Below, piece after piece: positions 17,312-19,932 of a DNA stretch of 33,817 nt (the first letter of the stretch is position 1; each line of letters opens with the position of its first letter). The notes beneath the pieces were generated by a model. The model was given only the letters and a program-made list of their open reading frames with translations. It was not told where the DNA came from and searched no databases. The position numbers and the translations under genes were made by a program. This DNA comes from Sedimenticola thiotaurini (GTDB lineage Bacteria > Pseudomonadota > Gammaproteobacteria > Chromatiales > Chromatiaceae): positions 1-33,817 of the forward strand of contig DRKP01000095.1 of assembly GCA_011051715.1 (NCBI GenBank), in the 5' to 3' direction.

Positions 17312-17800
17312 TCAACTTACCTGGAAGCGGCGGCGCAGGTCGCGCAGGATGACGTAGACCCAGGGCCACAGCAGCATGCCGACGAAGGGTGGGGCCCAGA
17401 ACGACAGCGACGGCACCGGCTGGGAGATCACACCCATCACCCACAGCGCCAGCAGTTTCTCGATCAGCAGCAGCAGCAGGACGGTGAGGGCCTGCTGCCA
17501 GATCGGGAACAGGCGGATGCGCTGGTGCATCTTGTGGGTGATGAAGGCGATCAGGGAGAGGGCCAGGGCGTGCTGGCCGAGCAGGGTCCCGGTGAGTACG
17601 TCGGCGACGATGCCGGTGGCCCAGCCGACGCCGACCCCCACCCGCTGCGGGGTGGCCATGGTCCAGTAGATCAGCACCAGGGTGTACCACTGGGGCCGGT
17701 AGTCACGGGCCCAATCCGGCAGCGGCAGCAGGGTGAGCATGAAGGCGAGGGCGAAGCTGATCAGTATGATCAGGCCGCCACGGTGCGGCGTCAGGGTCAT
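17312..17800 (-). CDS. mreD: Rod shape-determining protein MreD
   Basis: MreD is an inner-membrane partner of MreC in the elongasome. The 162 residues contain about five to six hydrophobic helices. Family features include ALAFMLTLLPLPDWARDYRPQW, LVLIYWTMATPQRVGVGVGWATGIVADVLTGTLLGQHAL and the C-terminal WAPPFVGMLLWPWVYVILRDLRRRF. The start overlaps the mreC stop by 4 nt (ATGA). It is followed by an unusually long gap before mrdA. Confidence 0.96.
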   Translation of the reverse strand: MTLTPHRGGLIILISFALAFMLTLLPLPDWARDYRPQWYTLVLIYWTMATPQRVGVGVGWATGIVADVLTGTLLGQHALALSLIAFITHKMHQRIRLFPIWQQALTVLLLLLIEKLLALWVMGVISQPVPSLSFWAPPFVGMLLWPWVYVILRDLRRRFQVS

Positions 17801-18771
17801 TCGGTCCCCTCCGCCACGGGTTCCCGCCCGTCGCCGGCCGTTGGGGTGGGCGCCCCGTCTCCTTCCCCGGCGGTGGCGGGTTCATCGCCTTCCGCCCCTT
17901 TCCCCGGGCCATCCTCGGTGGCACCGCTGGCGCCGATCAGGGGCGGCGCCCGGTCCAGGGTCCAGACCAGAAGCGCCTCCCGGGTCCGGTCGAGGTGGGC
18001 AAGGGGGCGGGCCCGGACCACGGCGAAGGGCTGGCCGGGCTCCTGTTCCACCGACACCACCTCGGCCACCGGGTAGCCGGGAGGGAAGCGCCCGCCCAGG
18101 CCGGAGGTGATCAGCAGATCGCCCACCCGGATGTCGGCGTTGTTGGGCAGATGGGGCAGCTCCAGCAGATTGATGCGGCCGGTGCCCAGGGCCACGGTGC
18201 GCAGGCCGTTGCGGTTCACCTGCACCGGCAGGGCGTGGCGGGCGTCGGTGATCAGCAGCACGGTGGCGGTGAGCGGATTGACATGGGTCACCTGTCCCAT
18301 CACCGCATTGGCGTCCAGCACCGGCTGGCCCTCGTAGACGCCGGAGCTGGTGCCCTTGTTGATCAGCACCTGCTGGCGGTAGGGGTCCAGATCCACCGCC
18401 ACCAGTTCGGCGATCAGCACCCGGTCGCCGATCTTGAAGGAGGAGTCCAGCAGGTTGCGCAGGCGCATGTTCTCGGCCTCCAGCGCCGCCATCTTCTGCT
18501 GTTTCGCCTGCAGCAGCAGGTTCTCCCGCTCCAGCGAACGGTTACGGTTCTGCAGCTCGCTGCGGCTGGCCAGGCTCTCGCTGGCCCAGCGGCTGACGGT
18601 GGCCGGCAGATCGACCACGAAGGTGAGCGGGGAGAGGACCACCGCCAGCGTGGCGCGGATCCCCTCCAGGTGGTGCTGGCGATGATCGACCACCATCAGG
18701 GCGATGGAGACCACCACTGCCGCCACCACGCGGGTGTTGATGGAGGGGCCTTGTGTGAAGATCAGTTTGAT
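17797..18771 (-). CDS. mreC: Rod shape-determining protein MreC, apparent ATC start codon
   Basis: MreC is an anchored periplasmic scaffold linking MreB filaments to PBP2/RodA. The conserved N-terminus K-L-I-F-T-Q-G-P begins at an ATC codon (18771-18769), where E. coli has ATG (MKPIFSRGP). GAGGTG (18785-18780) lies 8 nt upstream, an ideal ribosome site. From there the protein has 324 residues: a membrane anchor (about 15-30), a coiled coil (about 65-105), a beta domain with INKGTSSGVYEGQPV and LITSGLGGRFPPGYPVA, and a disordered Ala/Gly/Pro-rich tail. A GTG at 18729 is a fallback start, but it has no ribosome site and would remove the conserved cytoplasmic end. Either a rare start or a base error. 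Confidence 0.93.
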   Translation of the reverse strand: MKLIFTQGPSINTRVVAAVVVSIALMVVDHRQHHLEGIRATLAVVLSPLTFVVDLPATVSRWASESLASRSELQNRNRSLERENLLLQAKQQKMAALEAENMRLRNLLDSSFKIGDRVLIAELVAVDLDPYRQQVLINKGTSSGVYEGQPVLDANAVMGQVTHVNPLTATVLLITDARHALPVQVNRNGLRTVALGTGRINLLELPHLPNNADIRVGDLLITSGLGGRFPPGYPVAEVVSVEQEPGQPFAVVRARPLAHLDRTREALLVWTLDRAPPLIGASGATEDGPGKGAEGDEPATAGEGDGAPTPTAGDGREPVAEGTE

Positions 18772-18785
18772 CGCTGATCCACCTC
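18769..18785 (-). promoter_or_regulatory. Ribosome binding site and non-canonical start of mreC
   Basis: GAGGTG (18785-18780), an 8-nt spacer, then ATC (18771-18769). No ATG, GTG or TTG occurs in this frame at a workable distance; the in-frame CTG two codons later (18765) is 14 nt from the ribosome site. The spacing and the conserved protein start both select the ATC. Confidence 0.65.

Positions 18786-18855: not shown

Positions 18856-19932
<1,077 letters not shown>

Follow-up and report, generated by a model that had tools for sequence, protein, structure and literature searches.

MreC is needed by rod-shaped bacteria for building the cell wall, and its gene in Sedimenticola thiotaurini raises the question of whether translation can begin at an AUC codon and, if so, what such a start would mean. 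To our knowledge, very few bacterial genes retain a non-NUG start over long evolutionary times. The stretch of DNA analysed here (the window, 33,817 nucleotides) is contig 95 of a gammaproteobacterial genome of 3.39 Mb assembled in 194 contigs. It carries mreB (18856..19908; ATG start; TIGR00904, 526.8 bits), mreC and mreD (17312..17800; ATG start; TIGR03426, 123.8 bits) in that order on the minus strand, with mreB as the operon gene upstream of mreC and a 4-nt overlap between mreD and the mreC stop; a PBP2 gene and rodA lie on the same strand. Read from ATC, the mreC coding sequence (17797..18771, minus strand) has 324 codons. Its product scores 219.5 bits with TIGR00219 (MreC), against a cut-off of 92.75, with profile positions 3-273 aligned to residues 5-271, and 143.1 with PF04085, against a cut-off of 28. 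Both the curated cut-off score and the mreB-mreC-mreD neighbourhood identify the gene as mreC.

On the minus strand, the start region reads ...GAGGTG GATCAGCG ATC AAA CTG ATC TTC ACA CAA GGC CCC TCC ATC... A previous sequence-only reading proposed that mreC starts at the first ATC of this segment (18769..18771, minus strand), and several observations bear this out. The nearest upstream in-frame stop found by translation is the TAG of mreB (18856..18858, minus strand), and from there to the GTG at 18729 the mreC frame contains no ATG, GTG or TTG. Conservation of the protein begins at codon 1, and the ribosome site claimed to lie 8 nt before ATC is indeed present and well spaced, as the Shine-Dalgarno (SD) motif GAGGTG (18785..18780, minus strand), a six-base match to the anti-SD complement. 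The N-terminus encoded in the window, IKLIFTQGPS, aligns with MKPIFSRGPS of Escherichia coli, and in E. coli K-12 the codon at that place is ATG. The position of the start is thus fixed by homology: opposite codon 1 stand ATG in E. coli mreC and ATC, ATT or ATA (AUH) in relatives. On the basis of this comparison, it is very probable that mreC of this organism starts at AUC (18771..18769).

Codon 1 was surveyed in 221 mreC loci of Gammaproteobacteria including E. coli, with one genome per species; the first 30 comprise the window's own locus and 29 relatives at 56-77% identity, 80 are named, and the others are spread over the class. A few frames that were off by one to three codons were corrected by hand before counting. 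The sequence-only reading had stated that relatives have ATG, and had proposed aligning the codon in close relatives as a check. E. coli does have ATG, but the alignment gave ATC, ATT or ATA, not ATG, in the close relatives, and in all except three of the first 30 loci. Over the 221 loci, codon 1 is AUH in 166 (ATC 87, ATT 54, ATA 25), ATG in 22, GTG in 3, TTG in 2 and GTT in 3, the remainder being unassigned and mostly with divergent N-termini. These loci represent 106 families, 84 of them assignable: 61 are wholly AUH, 1 is mixed, 21 are NUG and 1 is GUU, with 22 unassigned. AUH genera include Thiocapsa, Thiocystis, Chromatium, Lamprocystis, Thiobaca, Thiorhodococcus, Sedimenticola, Candidatus Thiodiazotropha and Methylobacter, while mreC starts with ATG in Rhabdochromatium and Thiohalocapsa and with GTT in Thiohalophilus. 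No canonical start occurs between the upstream in-frame stop and codon 1 in 139 of 161 AUH loci, where the median distance from this stop to codon 1 is 11 codons; the first canonical codon downstream of it is at a median of codon 16. MreC N-termini of the alphaproteobacterial type, from outside the class, did not align with the start segment and are uninformative on the codon. Judged from these alignments, the non-AUG state of mreC is conserved across species, and the AUH start is a class-wide inherited design in which ATC, ATT and ATA swap freely and AUG is mostly avoided.

The same picture emerges at the protein level. In a profile of 154 AUH relatives, where codon 1 has a value of 1.0 by selection of the set, identity is 0.81 at Lys2, 1.0 at Phe5, which served as the anchor, and about 0.7 at Gly8-Pro9-Ser10, and codon differences at the conserved N-terminal positions are largely synonymous. 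Upstream of codon 1, amino-acid identity is 0.06-0.23, with the higher values falling within the SD stretch. At the nucleotide level, AUH mreC loci favour C at -2 (0.66) and -1 (0.55) and have A nearly fixed at +4, the bias at +4/+5 coming partly from Lys2.

As a negative control, mreB and mreD were read in the same loci. The mreB genes have canonical starts; five apparent AUH rows turned out to be one-codon misalignments adjoining ATG or TTG. The mreD genes start at ATG, GTG or TTG, with at most three rows not readable to a start. An unusual initiator tRNA was considered and discarded, as the genome that holds the window has a normal tRNA-Met(CAT) as its closest initiator match. The positive control was infC: where its N-terminus is readable in relatives, this gene begins at ATC or ATA, with ribosome sites of the GGAGGA type.

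A purine (SD) peak at -12 to -8 is conserved in the 154 relatives, with a signal far above that of shuffled upstream sequence. This signal, the AUH state of 166 of 221 loci and the onset of protein conservation at codon 1 together speak against a match by chance. Median SD strength is -6.9 kcal/mol for AUH mreC and -2.6 for NUG mreC, compared with -3.9 for mreB and -3.2 for shuffled upstream sequence, and AUG lineages such as Rhabdochromatium have no strong ribosome site before mreC. The contrast between AUH and NUG has a p of about 1e-7 over all rows with kinship ignored; the independent pairs on well-supported branches number only 4, go mostly in the same direction and are not significant, so that, with ancestry taken into account, the contrast is no more than suggestive. 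On a tree built with FastTree from 203 MreC proteins, with codon 1 excluded and with partial branch support, the third base of the start codon underwent at least 46 changes among ATC, ATT and ATA, and about 13 changes occurred between AUH and other start classes. The strongest sites of all belong to the three rows of GTT-started mreC genes (median -10.1 kcal/mol).

In the window, the predicted minimum-energy fold places AUC in the loop of a candidate RNA hairpin, GAUCAG[CGAUCAAA]CUGAUC (18761..18780, minus strand), with a 6-bp stem (GAUCAG/CUGAUC) and a weak z of -1.35. A conserved RNA structure at the mreC start was not retained, as such stems are only mildly enriched in relatives compared with shuffled upstream sequence, and Rfam gave no match.

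Initiation at AUC could be accomplished with ordinary components. The usual initiator tRNA (anticodon CAU) would read AUC with a third-position mismatch, and the strong SD would hold the 30S subunit in place at this codon. IF3 destabilises non-NUG initiation complexes and might throttle MreC synthesis as it does with infC, an effect that the strong site would offset; the shared mRNA would then yield less MreC than MreB, and MreC output would follow the IF3-to-ribosome ratio. The best explanation, which we regard as likely from the sequence comparisons, is that AUH is the true start, used by a normal initiator tRNA in an infC-like design that joins a strong site to an IF3-sensitive codon. MreC production may in this way be tied to the start-codon checkpoint of the ribosome. 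An influence of IF3 discrimination on how much MreC is made in vivo, as suggested by analogy, has about an even chance of being real. Tentatively, and with rather less confidence, it may be proposed that in most Gammaproteobacteria MreC is under IF3 start-codon discrimination, with the IF3-to-ribosome ratio directly tuning cell-wall elongation and shape, so that the infC circuit would have a second arm acting in trans. If this reading is true, gene finders pass over AUH starts, and the second arm has escaped notice for that reason. A search of the open-access literature gave no paper that connects MreC synthesis with IF3. An AUH mreC would offer a direct and easily tested link between the fidelity of translation initiation and cell-wall growth.

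Other readings of the start itself must be weighed against an AUC start. The sequence-only reading regarded a G-to-C base error as the main alternative, and the window does rest on one assembly, of 194 contigs. However, ATC, ATT or ATA is present in 166 loci from independent assemblies, single-contig chromosomes among them, and because these codons recur there in independent genomes of dozens of families, ATC is neither an error nor a strain quirk; the chance that the true codon is ATG is practically negligible. Initiation might instead occur at the GTG of codon 15 (18727..18729, minus strand), leaving the preceding segment as an untranslated leader. This is the first in-frame canonical codon and the choice expected of automatic annotation, and the published numbering of Pseudomonas aeruginosa MreC implies a late start in that species. 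Yet at codons 2-14, which such a start would remove, the protein sequence is conserved while the codon changes are synonymous, and the K2-xx-F5-xx-GPS motif lies there; the SD is correctly spaced for ATC, and E. coli has ATG at the same codon. GTG 18729 adjoins the MreC membrane helix, and a start at codons 15-17 would lose the cytoplasmic segment and cut into that helix. The rejection of this GTG by the sequence-only reading is therefore upheld, and we consider it very unlikely as the start. Even less probable is readthrough of the mreB TAG to give an MreB-MreC fusion, or a canonical start further upstream giving a longer N-terminus: the mreB and mreC frames coincide in the window with that TAG as the nearest in-frame upstream stop, but in relatives the median distance to the in-frame stop upstream is 11 codons, no canonical start lies between in 139 of 161, and the codons before codon 1 show no conservation at the protein level.

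A more serious competitor accepts the AUC start and dispenses with IF3 regulation. The AUH codon would merely scale MreC translation, the strong site would have evolved to compensate, and a change to AUG would overproduce MreC, so that codon and site are locked as a pair. The association of strong sites with AUH and weak ones with NUG, and the AUG lineages such as Rhabdochromatium that lack a strong site, speak for this possibility, to which we give somewhat less than an even chance. Against it, the E. coli combination of AUG and a weak site would serve equally well, and some 13 changes between AUH and the other classes indicate that the lock can be escaped. Our best explanation has points against it too: AUG suffices for mreC in E. 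coli, Rhabdochromatium and Thiohalocapsa, so that the AUH codon is dispensable over long times; the independent pairs behind the SD contrast are few; and 22 families are unassigned. As AUG with a weak site would be enough for low MreC, the retention of a strong site together with an IF3-sensitive codon, which is the infC design, hints at control by the amount of IF3. The sequence-only reading had suggested that a weak start sets the MreC level by holding it low; the setting of the level is plausible, but holding it low is an incomplete account, given that the ribosome sites of AUH genes are stronger than those of NUG genes. These stronger sites fit simple down-tuning no better than the IF3-sensitive, infC-like design.

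Two known systems are instructive for the IF3-sensitive design. For infC, an AUU or AUC start with autoregulation by IF3 is well established (PMC5472188), and mreC resembles it: both start at AUH after a strong ribosome site, and both are conserved between species. The product of infC is IF3 itself, which closes a feedback loop; that of mreC is a protein of cell-wall elongation, and the putative control by IF3 would act in trans. In Streptomyces, the GTC start of sigR has been experimentally proven to be repressed by IF3 (PMC5472188). For non-canonical starts in infC fidelity mutants, the same paper quotes rises of 3- to 15-fold. Like sigR, mreC is a cotranscribed gene with a non-NUG start, probably misannotated in databases, whose product would have to stay below its partner; sigR differs in having GTC, conservation at the level of the genus and experimental proof, whereas the AUH start of mreC is class-wide and deduced by sequence comparison. 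Few genes are known to conserve an AUH start, and mreC is an unusually widespread addition to them. An earlier report of a non-AUG mreC start was not found in the open-access literature, outside which many journals lie, so that "unreported" is provisional.

The consequences for annotation can be seen in MreC of the Pseudomonas type. Within one genus of this type, 25 of 25 genomes have AUH (ATC 23, ATA 1, ATT 1), and one of them encodes an MreC whose core shows 100% identity to the P. aeruginosa protein of known structure (6zlv). TAG usually lies four codons upstream of codon 1, beside the ribosome site, and canonical codons first appear mostly at codon 13, 16 or 17. The structure paper on P. 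aeruginosa MreC names Glu188 and Arg190, and in its numbering the first 14 residues span the cytoplasmic portion together with the membrane region (PMC8137920). Counted from AUC, these two residues are 204 and 206; the offset is 16, and the published numbering therefore begins at codon 17, a GTG within the membrane segment. We infer that this late numbering is a database truncation, and databases probably cut off the N-terminus of AUH-started MreC. A class-wide AUH start of mreC, Pseudomonas included, would imply that sequence databases, and published protein constructs as well, systematically carry a truncated MreC.

Another gammaproteobacterial gene with an AUH start is pcnB of E. coli, which starts at AUU. 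In several relatives, pcnB has no ATG, GTG or TTG, or none well placed, before the conserved region, which suggests a further conserved AUH start. Unlike those of mreC, the N-termini of pcnB are too variable to be aligned, and the window genome's own pcnB appears to be ATG-started.
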